Source: Deltaproteobacteria bacterium
GTDB lineage: Bacteria > Desulfobacterota > Desulfobulbia > Desulfobulbales > Desulfocapsaceae
DNA: 64,000 bases
Assembly: GCA_026388715.1 (NCBI GenBank)
Contig: JAPLJF010000035.1
Span: 124,001-188,000, forward strand
Direction: 5' to 3'
In this document: positions 2-45,655 of the stretch, in pieces
How positions within the stretch are numbered: the stretch's first letter is position 1
How the letters are laid out: each line of letters starts with the position of its first letter
Notes under the pieces: model-generated
Database searches by the model: none
What the model was told of the DNA's origin: nothing
What the model saw: only the letters and a program-made list of their open reading frames with translations
Made by a program: the position numbers and the translations under genes

Positions 2-1288
2 GCAGCACGTCGCGGTTGCGCCGTATGCCTCTACGACATGAAGCCACACCGATTCAGCCCAGCCCACAATTCCCCGCTTTTGGCCGAAATGGTCTGCAGC
101 AATTCCCTGCGTTCTAACGCCCAAAACTCGGCTGTCGGACTTCTCAAAGAAGAAATGCGCCGCCTTGGCTCACTCATCATGCGGGTGGCAACAGAGACAG
201 CCGTGCCCGCCGGCAAGGCCCTGGCCGTAAACCGGGAGCTTTTTTCCCAGGCCATCACTGAATGTCTCGAACAACATCCCTTAGTCGAAATTGTCCACCA
301 GGAGCAGACAGAAATCCCAGCTTCAACAGACGCCCCCATCATTCTGGCCACCGGGCCACTCACCTCCGAGGCCATGACCAATTCCCTGGTTCAACTGACC
401 GGGCGTGACCGTCTGGCCTTTTACGATGCCATAGCCCCTATTGTCCACAGCGAATCCCTGGATATGGATATTGTCTATCTGAAATCACGGTACGATGACG
501 GCCCAGGTGATTACCTGAACTGCCCAATGAACAAGGAGGAATATCTGGCATTCATCACCGCGTTGAAAGGCGCGGACACCGTTCCGCTGAAGGACTTTGA
601 GGAGGTAAAATACTTTGAAGGCTGCCTGCCCATCGAGGTCATGGTGGCACGCGGTGACAATACCCTGCGTTTTGGTCCGATGAAACCGGTTGGGCTTGAT
701 GACCCACGAACCGGCAGATGGCCCTATGCCGTGGTCCAGTTACGTAAAGAAAACAGACAAGGAAGCCTGTACAATCTTGTTGGTTTTCAGACCAAACTGA
801 CCTATCCGGAACAGAAACGTATCTTCCGCATGATTCCGGGAATGGCCCAGGCCGATTTCGCCCGTTTGGGATCTATTCATCGCAACACCTTTGTCTGCGC
901 ACCAGAACTTTTAGAGCCGACCCTGCAACTTAAATCAAGACCAGACCTGTTCCTGGCCGGACAGCTTTCCGGGGTGGAAGGCTATGTGGAATCAACAGCC
1001 ATGGGACTGCTGGCCGGCATCAACGCCAGCCGGTTGCTGACTGGAAAGCCTTTAGTTGTTCCGCCGCCAGAGACAGCTATGGGCGCCCTCATCACCCATC
1101 TAACCCAATCAGATCCAAAACATTTCCAACCCTCCAATGTCACTTTTGGTCTTTTCCCGGAATGGAACCAAGGGGATAAGAAAGATCACAAAACCGCAAA
1201 AATGCCTAAAGCTCTTCGTGGCGAGCTCAGGGCAAGCATCGCCCTGGAAGCCTTGACCAGATGGCAGAGTGAACACGAACTGCAATAA
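2..1288 (+). CDS. trmFO: tRNA m5U54 methyltransferase TrmFO (5' end outside window)
   Basis: Folate- and FAD-dependent enzyme that methylates U54 in the T loop of tRNA, using methylenetetrahydrofolate. The reading frame is open to the left edge: codons before the first ATG (position 38) encode [12 protein letters not shown], which runs straight into the family's [12 protein letters not shown] segment, so the true start and the N-terminal FAD-binding glycine motif lie outside the window. Family hallmarks are [10 protein letters not shown] with the first conserved Cys, [29 protein letters not shown] with the second catalytic-region Cys, and [10 protein letters not shown]. The C-terminal part contains [12 protein letters not shown] and [10 protein letters not shown], typical of the FAD-binding half. 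An intrinsic terminator follows the stop directly. Assignment is secure. Confidence 0.96.
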
Positions 1289-1337: not shown

Positions 1338-1480
1338 TTAGGTGCCATTATGAAATAAGCAGTGCTTTTTTGCTTATTTCATAATGGCACCTAATACCGC
1401 TTCAAAGAAACAGCCAATCTTTACCGGCTGTTTCTTTGAGAAGCGTCTGGCAGATAACATACAAGGAGTGGTTACGAAAC
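1338..1480 (+). repeat. Dispersed structured repeat, family A copy 1
   Basis: Two consecutive hairpins lie between the convergent trmFO and c-haem sensor genes. Hairpin 1 is a perfect 24-bp stem (1338-1361 with 1371-1394) around a 9-base loop; its outer part reads TTAGGTGCCATTA. Hairpin 2 (1398-1415 with 1426-1445) has a CAGCC/GGCTG apex and a loop starting AATCT. A tail with GATAACATACAAGGAG and GGTTACGAA follows. The same architecture recurs at 34391 and 45505. Function unknown. Confidence 0.8.
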
Positions 1481-7259: not shown

Positions 7260-7350
7260 GCCAAGGCAGCTCCTGTAACGAAAGAATAAGAAATCAAAAA
7301 TAGCAATCAGCCATTGTCGAAAAATAATTATAACATTGGAAAATCATAAT

Positions 7351-7416
7351 CGGCATAAGGAGCCATAACGAAATGATCAATAACGTAATGATTATTTCGT
7401 AACGACTTCTAACATC
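7351..7416. repeat. Dispersed palindromic repeat, family B copy 1
   Basis: About 66 bases with CGGCATAAGGAGCCATAACG at one end and ATTTCGTAACGACTTCTAA at the other; TAACGAAAT and ATTTCGTAACG form the arms. It is about 70% identical by eye to 18556-18620. It lies between two minus-strand genes. Confidence 0.7.
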
Positions 7417-16454: not shown

Positions 16455-17642
16455 ATGAATACCGTTCTTATTGTTGACGATGATGAAAGCTTTTTGCTCA
16501 GCCTGATTGATGGATTTAAATCCTACGAAGATCAATTTGGCATCATCACCGCCCATAACGGCGAGGAGGCCGTCGCCATCCTCGATGAACAGGAAATCCA
16601 TCTAGTCCTCACAGACCTGAAGATGCCCAAGATGGACGGCTTTGCGCTGGTCGCCCATCTCAGTGCCCATCACCCTGATCTCCCCGTCATTGTCATGACC
16701 GCCTTTGGCACTCCAGACATGGAAGAGAACCTGAAAGAAATCGGTGCGTTCCAGTATATCGAAAAGCCTATCGATTTCAATCTACTGGTCACCAAGATCC
16801 TGAAAGGGCTTGAAGGCCGCTCCAAGGGATTTATCACCGGAGTCTCTCTGGGATCATTTCTCCAGTTACTGGAACTGGACAAAAAAACATGTACCCTCAC
16901 CGTTCGTTCCGGAAAGAATCAAGGAACAATATACTTCAAAAACGGAGATCTCATGGATGCCAGCACCAATGATCTCACTGGGATCGATGCCGTCTTTGAG
17001 ATCATCAGATGGAAAAACGTAGAAATTATACTGGCGAATTCCTGCGACATTACTGAACAAAAAATCTCCGAATCTCTCGGCTTTATCCTGCTTGAAGGCA
17101 GCAGAAGACAGGACGAACGAGATACATCAACCGTAAGTCCTGCCCTCCCAAATAGCCCTGACGCCTCTCTTGGCTCCATAGATTTAACCGGCATAGACTT
17201 GGGTATTGATGATTTTCTCCATGATGACAACGTCCCTCCAACTTCATCACCAGCCGAGGTCATGACGTCTTCCACCATTGCAGCCTCAATACATGCCTCC
17301 AATCCGCTCTTGAAACAATTTATTGCTACGTTAGGAGCAATGCCCGAGATCAGCAACTCCATTCTTGTCTCCAAAGATGGGAACGTAATCCATACCGCCA
17401 AAACAAATGATGACCAACTTATTAATTTTATAACCTATCTCTCTGTTGTCAGTGAGCAGCTTCAAGTGGCTATGGGGGCCGGAGAACGGCAGTATGTCCT
17501 ATTTGGCTTGAACAGTGGGAAGAAGCTTCTTGTCCTCTGCGGCAAAGAGGTCGTGGTCGGCCTGGAAATCAGCAATACTACAGCCCCCGGTCCAATAGCT
17601 GCCGGATTACGACCCGTTTTAAACAGAATCAGTCTGCAATAA
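16455..17642 (+). CDS. Response regulator with receiver, PATAN (DUF4388) and roadblock-like domains
   Basis: 395 residues. The receiver (1-120) has VLIVDDDE, LVLTDLKMPKMDG with the phospho-acceptor Asp, VMTAFG and the KPID lysine. Next is a PATAN/DUF4388 domain (about 130-225, ITGVSLGSFLQLLELDKKT, GTIYFKNGDLMDA). An acidic linker leads to a C-terminal roadblock/LC7-like domain (about 290-395, SILVSKDGNVIHTAKT). No DNA-binding domain is present, so output is probably by protein contact. The start at 16455 follows GGGAG by five bases and directly begins the receiver strand; the open frame to 16398 is less likely. It sits between the kinase and a second roadblock-like gene and is probably co-transcribed with them. 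Confidence 0.87.
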   Translation: MNTVLIVDDDESFLLSLIDGFKSYEDQFGIITAHNGEEAVAILDEQEIHLVLTDLKMPKMDGFALVAHLSAHHPDLPVIVMTAFGTPDMEENLKEIGAFQYIEKPIDFNLLVTKILKGLEGRSKGFITGVSLGSFLQLLELDKKTCTLTVRSGKNQGTIYFKNGDLMDASTNDLTGIDAVFEIIRWKNVEIILANSCDITEQKISESLGFILLEGSRRQDERDTSTVSPALPNSPDASLGSIDLTGIDLGIDDFLHDDNVPPTSSPAEVMTSSTIAASIHASNPLLKQFIATLGAMPEISNSILVSKDGNVIHTAKTNDDQLINFITYLSVVSEQLQVAMGAGERQYVLFGLNSGKKLLVLCGKEVVVGLEISNTTAPGPIAAGLRPVLNRISLQ

Positions 17643-17644
17643 TA

Positions 17645-17745
17645 AAGAGCTGTTACGGCTCAACTGTTGTTTTTTGAACTCTTTCGTTACGACGGCCCCC
17701 GCAGAAACTATTATTGGGGTATCAATGAAGAGCGACCGGCTTTTT
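17645..17745 (+). repeat. Dispersed structured repeat, family C copy 1
   Basis: Lies in the gap between the receiver and roadblock genes. It contains GAGCTGTTACGGCTCAACTG, CTTTCGTTACGACGGCCCC and ATGAAGAGCGACCGGCTT followed by Ts, in that order. The same three blocks occur in order at 28235-28375. CCCC and GGGG segments between the blocks can pair. Confidence 0.7.
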
Positions 17746-17867: not shown

Positions 17868-18515
17868 ATGGATTCACTCCTCAAAGAAATCAATATGCTT
17901 CCCGGAGTTTTTGGCTGTTTTGTTTACACCGGCAATCAAGAGTTAGCGGCCGCAAAGCTTCCACCAATCTTCAAGGACAATACCATAAAAACCATGGGCA
18001 ATCTCCTCACCCGTACTATCAAAATGGGAGCCTTGGCCAACCTGGACATAGAGACAATTGAATTCAAATTCGATGTGTCACTGATCATTATCAAGCCCTT
18101 GGAACAAGGAGCCATTTTGGTGATGGTCTGTGAACCTATCGTTAATAAATCTCTCATCAACATGACCACTGCAATGTTGATAAACGACATCCAGGCCGCA
18201 ATCAACAGAGGCCCTGTGCAAGCCCAGAAGAGCCAAGCTCAGGTTGCAACTGCACCCCGGCAAGAACAGCCAAAAAAACAGGAAGCCGAGATAGACGCGG
18301 CACTAGCCCCTATACTGGAAAGCATCAAAGACGCTCTGGCTTATGCCATTGGTCCAATTGCCGGACAGGTCATGCTCGCCACCATTGAAACCTGGGCACA
18401 GCAAGGCCCGACATCCAAGCAACGACTGCCAGACCTTACCGCTCTGCTCTGCAAGGAAATCAACGACAAGGAACTGGAAAAGGAATTTAGGACCCAGATT
18501 AAGCCCTTCTCCTGA
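17868..18515 (+). CDS. Roadblock/LC7-like protein
   Basis: 215 residues. The N-terminal half (about 1-115) looks like a roadblock/LC7 (MglB-like) fold: INMLPGVFGCFVYTGNQELA, TIEFKFDVSLIIIKPLEQGA, ILVMVCEPIVNKSLINMTT. A Gln/Lys/Ala-rich linker follows (about 115-145). The C-terminal helical part (IDAALAPILESIKDALAYAI, then GPIAGQVMLATIETW) resembles a helical domain I have seen attached to such proteins, but I cannot name it with certainty. AAAGGAAATGCGCC precedes the ATG. Roadblock proteins commonly regulate small Ras-like GTPases, but no GTPase gene is in the window. It is the third gene of the kinase-receiver set. Confidence 0.68.
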   Translation: MDSLLKEINMLPGVFGCFVYTGNQELAAAKLPPIFKDNTIKTMGNLLTRTIKMGALANLDIETIEFKFDVSLIIIKPLEQGAILVMVCEPIVNKSLINMTTAMLINDIQAAINRGPVQAQKSQAQVATAPRQEQPKKQEAEIDAALAPILESIKDALAYAIGPIAGQVMLATIETWAQQGPTSKQRLPDLTALLCKEINDKELEKEFRTQIKPFS

Positions 18516-18555
18516 GCCCTTGGAATAAAAAACCGTTCCATTTATATGACAAGGT

Positions 18556-18620
18556 CGGGATAAGGATCCGTAACGAAATCGTTAAGAATGTAACAGTTAT
18601 TTCGTAACGACTCCTAATCC
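18556..18620. repeat. Dispersed palindromic repeat, family B copy 2
   Basis: Begins CGGGATAAGGATCCGTAACG and ends with TTTCGTAACGACTCCTAATC, with TAACGAAAT/ATTTCGTAACG as arms. Homologous to 7351-7416. It sits between convergent genes, where it could also act as a weak bidirectional terminator. Confidence 0.7.
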
Positions 18621-28150: not shown

Positions 28151-28236
28151 CGAAACCTCCGGTGGCTTCTCATTTTTTTCTCATTTAACATCCCCATCCT
28201 GGAAATGACAGGGACTATTACCAATTTCAGGAACTG

Positions 28237-28385
28237 TCACGAAGCAACTTGTCTCTTTATAACCCTTTTGTTACGACGGCCATGGATAAGATAGCATTGT
28301 GTCGCTCGCTAAGTGGACGCCCCGAAGGAAATGCCCTTGGGGTGCGGATGAAGAGCGACCGGCTTCTTATGCCGTTTTCGCCATT
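28237..28385 (+). repeat. Dispersed structured repeat, family C copy 2
   Basis: Fills much of the ftsH-carB gap. Blocks in order are CTGTCACGAAGCAACTTGTC, CTTTTGTTACGACGGCC and ATGAAGAGCGACCGGCTT, as at 17645. This copy has about 45 extra bases in which GTCGCTC pairs with GAGCGAC and CCCCGAAGG pairs with CCTTGGGG. Confidence 0.7.
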
Positions 28386-33356: not shown

Positions 33357-34391
33357 ATGCCTAAAATCAGATTTTCTTTATTCTATACCCTTACTCTTTT
33401 ATTCCTTCTATCTGGAGAAACACTCATGGCAGAGACACAACTGAAAGATGGCCTGTACGCCAAATTTATCACCGCCAAGGGCAATATTATCTGTGCCCTG
33501 GAATTTGAGAAGACCCCCCTCACTGTGGCTAACTTTGTCGGCCTGGCCGAGGGCACCAAAGAACTCGGCGGTGGCGCCGGCAAAGGAGGCGCCAGATTTT
33601 ATGATAATCTGACCTTCCATCGGGTTATCCCCGACTTCATGGTTCAGGGCGGCTGCCCTCTGGGTACTGGCACCGGCGGCCCCGGCTACACCTTCCCTGA
33701 CGAGTTTGACCCCACTCTCAAACACAGCGGCCCGGGTATCCTCTCCATGGCCAATGCCGGACCTGACACCAATGGTAGCCAGTTTTTCATCACCCATGTT
33801 GCCACCCCTTGGTTGGACGGCAAACACACAGTTTTTGGCCATGTGGTTGAAGGCCAGGACGTTGTCAATAAAATAAAAGGTAATGACAAACTGACGTCAG
33901 TGGAGATCATTCGCGTGGGCGCCAAGGCCCAGGCCTTTAAAAGTGACCAGGCAGCCTTTGACAAACTGCTGGCCAGCATGGACAAACGGGCTAAAGAAAA
34001 AGAGCTGTCAGCCGTAGAATCACAAGTCAAACAGATCAAGCAACGGTGGCCTGATGCCATCACCACCCCCTCCGGCCTCCAGTATGTCATCGTCCAGAAA
34101 GGCGATGGCACCGCCACCCCATCCTCTGGCACCATGGTCAAGGCCCACTATACAGGAAAGCTTCTGGACGGCACCAAATTTGACAGCTCCTATGACCGCG
34201 GCGAGCCCATCAGCTTTCCCGTTGGGCAGGGCCGGGTGATTAAAGGATGGGATGAGGCCTTTCTGACTATGACAAAGGGCGAGAAACGGGTTCTCATCAT
34301 CCCGGCAAAACTTGGCTATGGCCCGTCAGCACGCGGCCCTATCCCTCCCAACTCCACCATGGTCTTTGACGTAGAACTTGTTGATTTTTAG
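33357..34391 (+). CDS. Exported cyclophilin-FKBP fusion peptidyl-prolyl isomerase
   Basis: 344 residues with an N-terminal signal sequence ([20 protein letters not shown]). A cyclophilin domain (about 35-185) has [29 protein letters not shown] and [15 protein letters not shown] helical linker with charged residues follows. An FKBP domain ends the protein (about 250-344: [57 protein letters not shown]). Two unrelated prolyl isomerase folds in one chain suggest a periplasmic folding factor. AGGAGAAACC precedes the ATG. Repeat family A copy 2 begins at the last base of the stop codon. Confidence 0.94.
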
Positions 34392-34535
34392 ATGCCGTTA
34401 CAAAAAGAGCAAGGCTCTTATTGCTCTTTTTGTTTACGGCACCTTATGCCGCCTCCAAGAAACAGCAATCTTTTCAGCTGGTTCTTGGGGTGGCGTCTTG
34501 CATATAACACATAAATAACAGACAAGGAGCCGTTC
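34391..34535 (+). repeat. Dispersed structured repeat, family A copy 2
   Basis: Begins at the stop codon of the isomerase gene. Hairpin 1 pairs GATGCCGTTACAAAAAGAGC with GCTCTTTTTGTTTACGGCAC. Hairpin 2 pairs GCCGCCTCCAAGAAACAGC with GCTGGTTCTTGGGGTGGC around a loop starting AATCT. The tail has TCTTGCATATAACAC and GACAAGGAGCCGTT. Confidence 0.8.
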
Positions 34536-43678: not shown

Positions 43679-45487
43679 CTATGCCTCCCGCCGGACTATG
43701 GCGTCAAATTTACAGAGCGCCTGACACTGACCGCAACCGTTACACTGCACTTCACTTATCAAGGCAAAGCCTTTCTGCTTCTCCTTGTACCCGAGCGCCT
43801 TTACTTTCTGGGGACTCAAGGGGTTCCAACTGATGGCCGGACAGCCAAGCCGGACACAGGCCATGCAGCCGGTACAACTGGCAAGCCGGGTACTGTATGG
43901 GATATGTTTCGCCTTTTTCATCTCGGGCAGGAGCACACAAGGCGCCCTGGCAATAACCACCGAGGCCTCATCACGCTCCAGCGCCTTTTCCAGCACCTTG
44001 CGGCAGCCATTGATATCATGGGGATTCACCACATCCACATGCCTGACCCCGACAGCCCGGCACAGGGCCTCAAGATCAATGGCATTGGCCGCCTCGCCCT
44101 TAATATTACACCCGGACGCAGGATTATTCTGCTGACCAGTCATAGCAGTTATACGGTTATCGAAGATGATCAGCAGCGAACTGGAACCATTGTACACAGT
44201 ATTGATCAGGCCGGACAGACCGCTATGGATAAAGGTGGAATCGCCGATGACCGAAACGATCTTCCCCTTGGCTTCCGTCCCAAGGGCCTTGGCCATGCCG
44301 TGAGCAATCCCCACCGATGCCCCCATACAAACGCAGGAATCCATGGCTGACAGAGGCGGCAAAAAGCCCAGAGTGTAGCAGCCGATATCCCCGGAGACAA
44401 ACAGTTTCATCCTCGACAGGTTGTAAAAGATGCCGCGATGCGGACATCCGGCACACATATTGGGCGAACGCATGGGCAGCGCCACCGGTGCAAAAAGCTC
44501 AGTAACCGAGGCGGGATCAACAGACTTGCGAACAATGGTGGTGTTCAGTTCCCCCTGATTGGGGATCAGGTCCTTGCCATGACACAGGATCCCCATGGCC
44601 TTGATATGCAGTTCCAAGAACGGATCGAGTTCTTCGACAATAACCAACTGATCAACGGATGCGGCAAAATCACGGATCTTCTGTTCGGGCAGGGGCCAGC
44701 ACATGCCAAGCTTGAGGACAGCGGCCTCGGGAAAGGCCTCTTTCACATAGAGGTAGGAGACACTGGAGGTAATAAAGCCACGCCGGGTATCACCCGCTTC
44801 CACCCGGTTATAGGGCGCGGTCTCGGCCATCTCCCGCAGACGGCGCATCCGCTCTTCCACGACCACCCGGCGCGAGCGGGCATTGCCAGGCAGCATGACA
44901 AACTTGGCAGGCATCTTTTCAATCCCAGGGCTTACCGAAGAACTCAGCTTCTTCCCCTTTTTGACTACACACTTGACATGGGCAATCCGGGTCGTGGTGC
45001 GAAAAAGAACAGGGGTATCAAACTCTTCACTGATGGCAAAGGCCAGTTTGAGCAACTCTTTGGCCTCCGCCGGATCAGAGGGCTCCAGCATGGGCACCTT
45101 GGCAGCAAAGGCATAATTACGGCTGTCCTGCTCATTCTGGGAGGAATGCATCTCCGGGTCATCGGCAACAATCACCACCAATCCCCCCCGCACTCCGGTA
45201 TAGGAGGCAGTAAAAAGAGGATCAGCCGCCACATTCAGGCCCACATGTTTCATGGTGGCAAGGGCCCTGACGCCTGCAAACGAGGCACCGACAGCCACCT
45301 CAAAACCCACTTTTTCATTGGGCGCCCACTCGGTATACACTCCCTCATAGCACGACAGGTTTTCCAGAATCTCTGTGGAAGGAGTACCAGGATACCCGGA
45401 CGCGACCTTGACCCCGGCCTCGTAAGCGCCCAAAGCAATGGCCTCATTGCCGGACATCCACACAGAGTCATCCCCAAAGTCTATCAC
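43679..45487 (-). CDS. iorA: Indolepyruvate:ferredoxin oxidoreductase alpha subunit
   Basis: 602 residues. The pyrimidine-type domain starts WMSGNEAIALGAYEAGVKVA and contains GYPGTPSTEI. The thiamine-diphosphate domain has CAGCPHRGIFY, SGDIGCYTLGFLPPL and GDSTFIHSGLSGLINTVYN followed by DNRITAMTGQQNNP. Two 4Fe-4S ferredoxin sites end the protein: CTGCMACVRLGCPAI and CNGCGQCQALCKFDAI. GTG start with AGGAG eight bases upstream. Gives aromatic amino-acid fermentation or, reversed, aryl pyruvate synthesis; direction in this organism is not evident. Confidence 0.97.
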   Translation of the reverse strand: MIDFGDDSVWMSGNEAIALGAYEAGVKVASGYPGTPSTEILENLSCYEGVYTEWAPNEKVGFEVAVGASFAGVRALATMKHVGLNVAADPLFTASYTGVRGGLVVIVADDPEMHSSQNEQDSRNYAFAAKVPMLEPSDPAEAKELLKLAFAISEEFDTPVLFRTTTRIAHVKCVVKKGKKLSSSVSPGIEKMPAKFVMLPGNARSRRVVVEERMRRLREMAETAPYNRVEAGDTRRGFITSSVSYLYVKEAFPEAAVLKLGMCWPLPEQKIRDFAASVDQLVIVEELDPFLELHIKAMGILCHGKDLIPNQGELNTTIVRKSVDPASVTELFAPVALPMRSPNMCAGCPHRGIFYNLSRMKLFVSGDIGCYTLGFLPPLSAMDSCVCMGASVGIAHGMAKALGTEAKGKIVSVIGDSTFIHSGLSGLINTVYNGSSSLLIIFDNRITAMTGQQNNPASGCNIKGEAANAIDLEALCRAVGVRHVDVVNPHDINGCRKVLEKALERDEASVVIARAPCVLLPEMKKAKHIPYSTRLASCTGCMACVRLGCPAISWNPLSPQKVKALGYKEKQKGFALISEVQCNGCGQCQALCKFDAIVRREA

Positions 45488-45504
45488 GTTAACTCCTGAA
45501 TTTT

Positions 45505-45655
45505 TAGGTGCCGTTACTAATCAAGCAAGGTCTTTTTCTTGCTTGATTAGTTTACGGCACCTTATGCCGCACCAAAAAAACAGCCAATCTGTTCCGACTG
45601 TTTTTTGGGTGCGGCGTCTTGCGGATAACATGCAAAACAACAGACAAGGTACCGT
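45505..45655 (+). repeat. Dispersed structured repeat, family A copy 3
   Basis: Upstream of iorA, next to its ribosome site. Hairpin 1 pairs AGGTGCCGTTACTAATCAAG with CTTGATTAGTTTACGGCACC (variable inner stem, conserved outer stem). Hairpin 2 pairs GCCGCACCAAAAAAACAG with CTGTTTTTTGGGTGCGGC around AATCTGTTCC-like loop. The tail has GCGGATAACATGC and GACAAGGTACCGTTAACGA. Confidence 0.8.

Follow-up and report, generated by a model that had tools for sequence, protein, structure and literature searches.

Double-hairpin repeats beginning with TTAG supply stop codons to unrelated genes in a genus of Desulfobulbales

Single-strand (HUH) transposition inserts DNA without target-site duplication, and PATEs and IS200-IS605-type MITEs, which have two subterminal hairpins, likewise leave no duplicated target. 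GTAG REPs often give the flanking open reading frames their TAG stop codon (Di Nocera et al. 2013, PMC3733652), so the principle of a stop-supplying repeat is already known. ERIC/IRU sequences are structured intergenic repeats of about 127 bp, presumed to be mobile, which at the 3′ end of a gene can alter mRNA stability (reviews PMC2229807, PMC10969869). A literature search found no specific report of a stop-codon repeat in the bacteria studied here. We describe a repeat from these bacteria, family A, which is probably a non-autonomous mobile element of the REP/PATE type retained at gene ends as a stop codon and structured 3′ UTR.

Three copies of family A, all on the plus strand, are present at 1338-1464, 34388-34514 and 45504-45635 of the window (the whole stretch of DNA that was analysed, 64,000 nucleotides), each made up of two hairpins, joined by a short linker, and a tail:

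1338..1464 (+), family A copy 1, short-stem subtype A1; CM R1 132.9 bits, fold z −13.1; convergent genes 38-1288 (+) and 1529-2494 (−) on either side
1338..1394 (+), hairpin 1 of copy 1, 25 bp, perfect
1398..1445 (+), hairpin 2 of copy 1, from folding
33357..34391 (+), gene upstream of copy 2, cyclophilin plus FKBP-type peptidyl-prolyl isomerase (Pfam PF00160, PF00254)
34388..34514 (+), family A copy 2, long-stem subtype A2; CM R1 125.9 bits, fold z −9.1
34389..34391 (+), TAG, the stop codon of the FKBP gene and bases 2-4 of the element
34390..34444 (+), hairpin 1 of copy 2, from folding
34446..34496 (+), hairpin 2 of copy 2, from folding
45504..45635 (+), family A copy 3, subtype A2; CM R1 128.3 bits, fold z −10.0
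45506..45562 (+), hairpin 1 of copy 3, from folding
45564..45617 (+), hairpin 2 of copy 3, from folding

The first-pass annotation had described three dispersed double-hairpin copies, and these proved to be real: their fold z-scores lie between −9 and −13, none of 200 shuffles folded as well, and about 45 copies occur in the host genome (2.97 Mb, 36 contigs; BLAST E down to 1e-77), some of them in head-to-tail arrays in which 2-3 units repeat roughly every 124-149 nt. Several of its details needed revision. The outer stem, taken to be constant, covaries family-wide, and copy 2 itself has GATGCC facing GGCACC. The supposedly common linker (TATGCCGC) holds for copies 2 and 3 but not for copy 1, which has AATACCGC, and the tail with GATAACA and GACAAGG is only partly common, copy 2 reading TATAACA and the later tail being variable. 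A location at gene ends is exact for copy 2, whose TAG closes the cyclophilin/FKBP gene, whereas copy 1 starts 51 nt past a TrmFO/GidA-like gene and copy 3 has minus-strand genes on both sides, to which it is antisense, lying 17 nt upstream of where one of them, 43679-45487 (−), begins. At the site orthologous to copy 3 in genome G004 (locus L329) the element is absent. That annotation had overlooked the TTAG start by which the element provides stop codons, the related family C with its insertion lacking target duplication, and the likeness to REP elements.

The family A unit spans about 120-130 nt and reads TTAG, hairpin 1, TTATGCCGC, hairpin 2 and tail, with TTAG at the 5′ end of nearly all copies. 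In the consensus, the 5′ arm of hairpin 1 is T-TAG-GTGCCGT-T-A, followed by a variable inner stem and a T-rich apex, and the 3′ arm has an unpaired T-T facing T12, then ACGGCACC-TTA and the linker TGCCGC; hairpin 2 has a 10-nt loop (AATCTTTTCC), followed by GTGGCGTCTGGCAGATAACA. Subtype A1 possesses a short, nearly constant inner stem (GAAATAAGCAGTGC) and subtype A2 a longer, hypervariable one (NNNNNNNAGCAAGGTCTTTTTCTTGCTNNNNNNN). An internal mismatch is kept in hairpin 1, T12 and T50 being invariant and T49 at least 90% conserved, and variants with a perfect palindrome coexist with imperfect ones (L242 versus L243). The right end is ragged, and the filled sites contain an additional 30-75 nt. 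The DNA beside several copies (L219, L232, L040, L008) is filled with low-complexity sequence, for example AATTACGAATTAAAAATGACGAATGACG and CTTCAACCTTCAACC.

Compensatory changes in the stems, noted at first on the window copies, were borne out on a much larger set. Across 37 family A paralogues, 97.5% of cells pair and two-sided changes affect 18 of 34 pairs, with 73 two-sided cells against 13.8 ± 3.0 in shuffles and a covariation score of 0.258 against 0.119. Likewise, 46 long-type hairpin-1 sequences from the genus show two-sided changes in 17 of 23 pairs with 97.4% of cells paired, and their 186 two-sided cells compare with 57 ± 6.4 after shuffling and at most 34 with the partner slid, no shuffle attaining the observed values. 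Outer-stem pairs found in the family include GGTGTC/GACACC, GATGCC/GGCATC, GAGGCC/GGCCTC and GAGCCC/GGGCTC. The same was seen at orthologous positions: 3′ of the FKBP gene, the element occupies the same stop codon in 11 of the 16 genus orthologues examined. The inner stems there differ by species (among them CAAAAAGAGC, GCTACAGCGAGC, CAAAGTAAGC and AAAGCCATGAGC), the outer stems change along with them, and the era and ychF sites repeat this pattern of differing letters and kept pairing.

The first-pass annotation took these changes as an argument for selection on structure, a claim that stood as far as a structured, covarying element is concerned but not as proof of selection. One-sided changes occur in only 24 cells of the hairpin-1 set against 186 for two-sided ones, which suggests that both arms change in concert. 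Template switching, in which one arm serves as the template for the other, would produce such a pattern as well; it is therefore a live rival to selection, and the covariation by itself cannot decide between the two. Blind palindrome correction, however, should erase a conserved internal mismatch, and the survival of the mismatch in hairpin 1 argues against such correction.

In a DNA search over 38 relatives, each of the 17 genus members (order Desulfobulbales) gave a match, one (G011) counting only through L113, a locus resembling the sibling family C described below. No match was found in the 8 other genera of the family, and elsewhere in the order 1 of 13 genomes matched, at a locus (L112) that is itself family C. 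The covariance model gave weak matches beyond the genus, in other families of the order (E 1e-6 to 1e-9); the single extra-generic locus that was inspected, L112, belongs to C rather than A. Named records with matches are metagenome assemblies labelled Desulfobulbaceae, Desulfocapsaceae, Desulfocapsa sp. and Desulfoarculaceae, and presence within the genus is patchy from species to species. The initial impression that the element matches no named family held: at the Rfam gathering threshold only a tRNA was found in the window, permissive thresholds gave generic hairpin families far below gathering, and the viral contigs, plasmids and phage records searched contained no match, so we regard family A as a new family.

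In the host genome, the TAG of the element is the in-frame stop codon of a same-strand gene in 25 of 41 leading units, at a distance of exactly −2; L011, where TAG is changed to CAG, is the one unit with a same-strand gene end at another short distance. At other fetched loci, which overlap the genomes of the genus set and are thus not independent of the host-genome count, TAG is in frame in 42 cases and in another frame in 2. A T precedes TAG in 135 of 136 unique family A copies, and of the 41 predicted window genes the FKBP gene is the one that ends in T-TAG (0/40 for the others). Gene ends with the element are mostly NTT (76/94), a T being found there in only 5 of 41 window genes. In element-free relatives these proteins mostly end at an identical residue, followed by a TAA or TGA stop, as seen in the native ends of FKBP (TTC-TAA), era (TTC-TGA) and ychF (GTC-TAA) and in those of two sister species (GTA-TAA, ATC-TGA, AAT-TGA and TTT-TAA). 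Element-free orthologues at L131, L137 and L203 end in T-TAG and may be element losses; gain and loss are therefore not always distinguishable. Subtype A2 is found at stop codons in 17 of 20 cases and A1 in 8 of 20 (p = 0.008).

Three loci at which the element is gone (L222, L229 and L239) have genes ending in frame within the tail (TCTGGCAGATAA), and these together with L313 and L210, which also lack it, have a common right boundary at or near TCTGGCA/TTGCA; such derivatives could be deletions or could reflect a tail module that is older and separate. Just 3′ of genes (L131, L137, L139, L046, L031), including FKBP gene ends without family A, and also inside family A tails, short hairpins like GTCGGGTTGAAATCCGAC were observed that recall GTAG REPs.

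A stable structure, covariation and conserved loops such as the AATCT apex of hairpin 2 could suggest a classical regulatory RNA, an intrinsic terminator or a riboswitch-like element that serves particular genes. We consider this highly improbable, as the genes ahead of the copies are unrelated (FKBP, era, ychF, a hydrogenase subunit, a response regulator), some copies lie antisense and some in arrays, and Rfam offered no family at threshold. Terminator scans were unconvincing, with no U-run after either full stem and with terminator-like matches that lay within hairpin 1 or on the opposite strand.

Family C possesses the TTAG start and layout of family A (TTAGGAGCCGTTACGAAATAAC...GTTACGGCTCC-TTATGCCGTT...AACGGCT), and two copies lie in the window:

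7309..7412 (−), family C element (TTAGAAGTCGTTACGAAATAATC...)
18515..18618 (−), family C element (TTAGGAGTCGTTACGAAATAAC...), hairpin-TTAT-hairpin layout

It is commoner than family A, its scored copies in the host genome numbering at least 40 and its first-look candidates 149, and it was found too in another family of the order (G036). Despite the similar design, only 5 of 33 family C copies are at stop codons, a smaller share than the 25 of 41 in family A (p = 1e-4). Another repeat, at 17642-17745 and 28231-28368 (GTTACGACGGCC ... ATGAAGAGCGACCGGCTT; 75-76% identical), recurs in part in L034.

Pairs of empty and filled family C sites (L254/L335, AGATT^CAGTC; L258/L308, GCAGGT^AAAAGGG; L264/L337) revealed no target-site duplication, which points to HUH-type single-strand transposition; we infer the same route for family A, whose right junctions are ragged. 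A DDE-type MITE of the IS630/mariner kind with a TA target is suggested by the TTA flanking both family C ends (TTAGGAGCCGTT...AACGGCTTA), as if terminal inverted repeats were bordered by TA. This origin is improbable, since the family C insertions at L254/L335 and L258/L308 lack either a TA at the empty site or a duplicated TA, and 27 DDE_3 transposase loci from across the genus show no matching ends. As for single-strand transposases, the host genome holds only a Y1 fragment, no family A element was found within 89 kb around 30 Y1 genes from across the genus, and the GTCGG...CCGAC REP motif looked for near Y1 genes was likewise absent.

The fate of the copies was followed in the sister species G004 and G008, by hand tallies from alignments of these two species. 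Stop-codon sites hold the element in 22 of 37 cases, against 7 of 24 for off-stop family A sites and 7 of 19 for family C sites away from stops, so that persistence at stops exceeds that of off-stop family A (p = 0.035) and of off-stop A and C together (14/43, p = 0.024); in these counts L037 in G004, where part of hairpin 2 is lost, was scored as present, the partial L020 in G004 as absent, and the ambiguous L023 in G008 was excluded. The better persistence at stops and the bias of subtype A2 fit selective retention, the difference being modest and the samples small. At the orthologous sites L214 and L328 in G008, a different hairpin of similar design was observed (TAGTGCCTTACAGATTATTTTC...GCACTTATCCCG and TAGTACCTTAGGAATTCATTTC...GGTACTTATCC), which suggests yet another related family.

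The same data bear on whether family A is a selfish or neutral repeat without host function, with a T-N-TAA/TGA-like target that would make gene ends hot spots and with stems that would stay paired because transposition needs it or because template switching copies the arms. The preference for NTT at element gene ends, the vast excess of two-sided over one-sided changes, the perfect palindromes next to imperfect ones and the patchy presence between species all favor such a repeat, but family C, with the same start and layout, is rarely at stops, stop-codon copies persist better (p = 0.02-0.035), and the T12/T50/T49 mismatch survives. On balance we regard a selfish or neutral repeat as possible but unlikely.

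For the preferred reading, a mobile element retained at gene ends, we propose the following course. A single-strand (HUH/Y1) transposase would carry family A as a passenger and insert it after a T without duplicating the target. Where the element lands at a last codon, its own TTAG would make the gene end NNT-TAG, and such insertions are proposed to be harmless because TTAG supplies a new stop. Translation would then stop where hairpin 1 begins to rise from its foot, giving the mRNA a structured 3′ UTR or intercistronic spacer. Stop-codon copies would be lost less often and would diverge yet stay paired, probably being kept as folded 3′-UTR elements that protect against 3′ exonucleases or separate genes in an operon. 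Counting against this course are the absence of a linked Y1 transposase, the fact that clean insertions were seen for family C while family A has a ragged right end, the T-TAG ends of some element-free orthologues, and a persistence difference that is modest and comes from two species. Both the transposase class and the function at the RNA level, be it mRNA protection or gene insulation, are thus put forward from sequence comparison. A genus-wide domestication, in which housekeeping genes such as FKBP, era and ychF took over a mobile hairpin as their stop codon and 3′ UTR, the stems turning over fast with selection on the fold only and ribosomal termination being coupled to folding, is a bolder idea that we offer tentatively and think rather doubtful.

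These sites amount to a natural experiment, in which the same stop position can be compared across many species with differing hairpin letters and kept pairing, and with plain gene ends, family C serving as a same-layout contrast that is not concentrated at stops. With them one can test directly if REP-like mobile repeats travel as neutral passengers or are retained as mRNA 3′ ends, and how paired arms change together. For annotation this means that many genes of the genus owe both their stop codon and their 3′ UTR to a transposable element.

Among known systems, ERIC/IRU resemble family A in being structured, presumed mobile and located between co-directional genes; ERIC, however, has TA termini and one long stem, and systematic stop supply is unreported in PMC2229807 and PMC10969869. 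PATEs are similar in length (about 100-130 nt), in having two hairpins and no open reading frame, and in the lack of target duplication (for family C only), but hairpin 1 of family A begins at the very end of the element, and neither a parent IS nor a resident Y1 transposon with identical ends was found. The GTAG REPs and their RAYTs (PMC3733652; Nunvar et al. 2010, PMC2817692) are likewise dispersed palindromes mostly 3′ of genes, with an unpaired tetranucleotide at one end and with doublets and clusters, and family A shares the REP trait of lying 3′ of genes and supplying the TAG stop (25/41 in frame). In place of the GTAG/CGTC tag it carries TTAG at its 5′ end; whereas a REP is a single palindrome of 20-40 nt, it has two unlike hairpins that keep a constant order over about 120-130 nt, with a stem of about 24 bp, hypervariable in sequence yet paired; in contrast to the head-head and tail-tail dimers of REPs, its arrays run head-to-tail in one orientation; and whereas REPs flank their RAYT gene, the loci of 30 Y1 genes carry no family A copy. 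Since the tag, the single palindrome and the linked RAYT all differ, we do not file family A as a REP, although it works like one.
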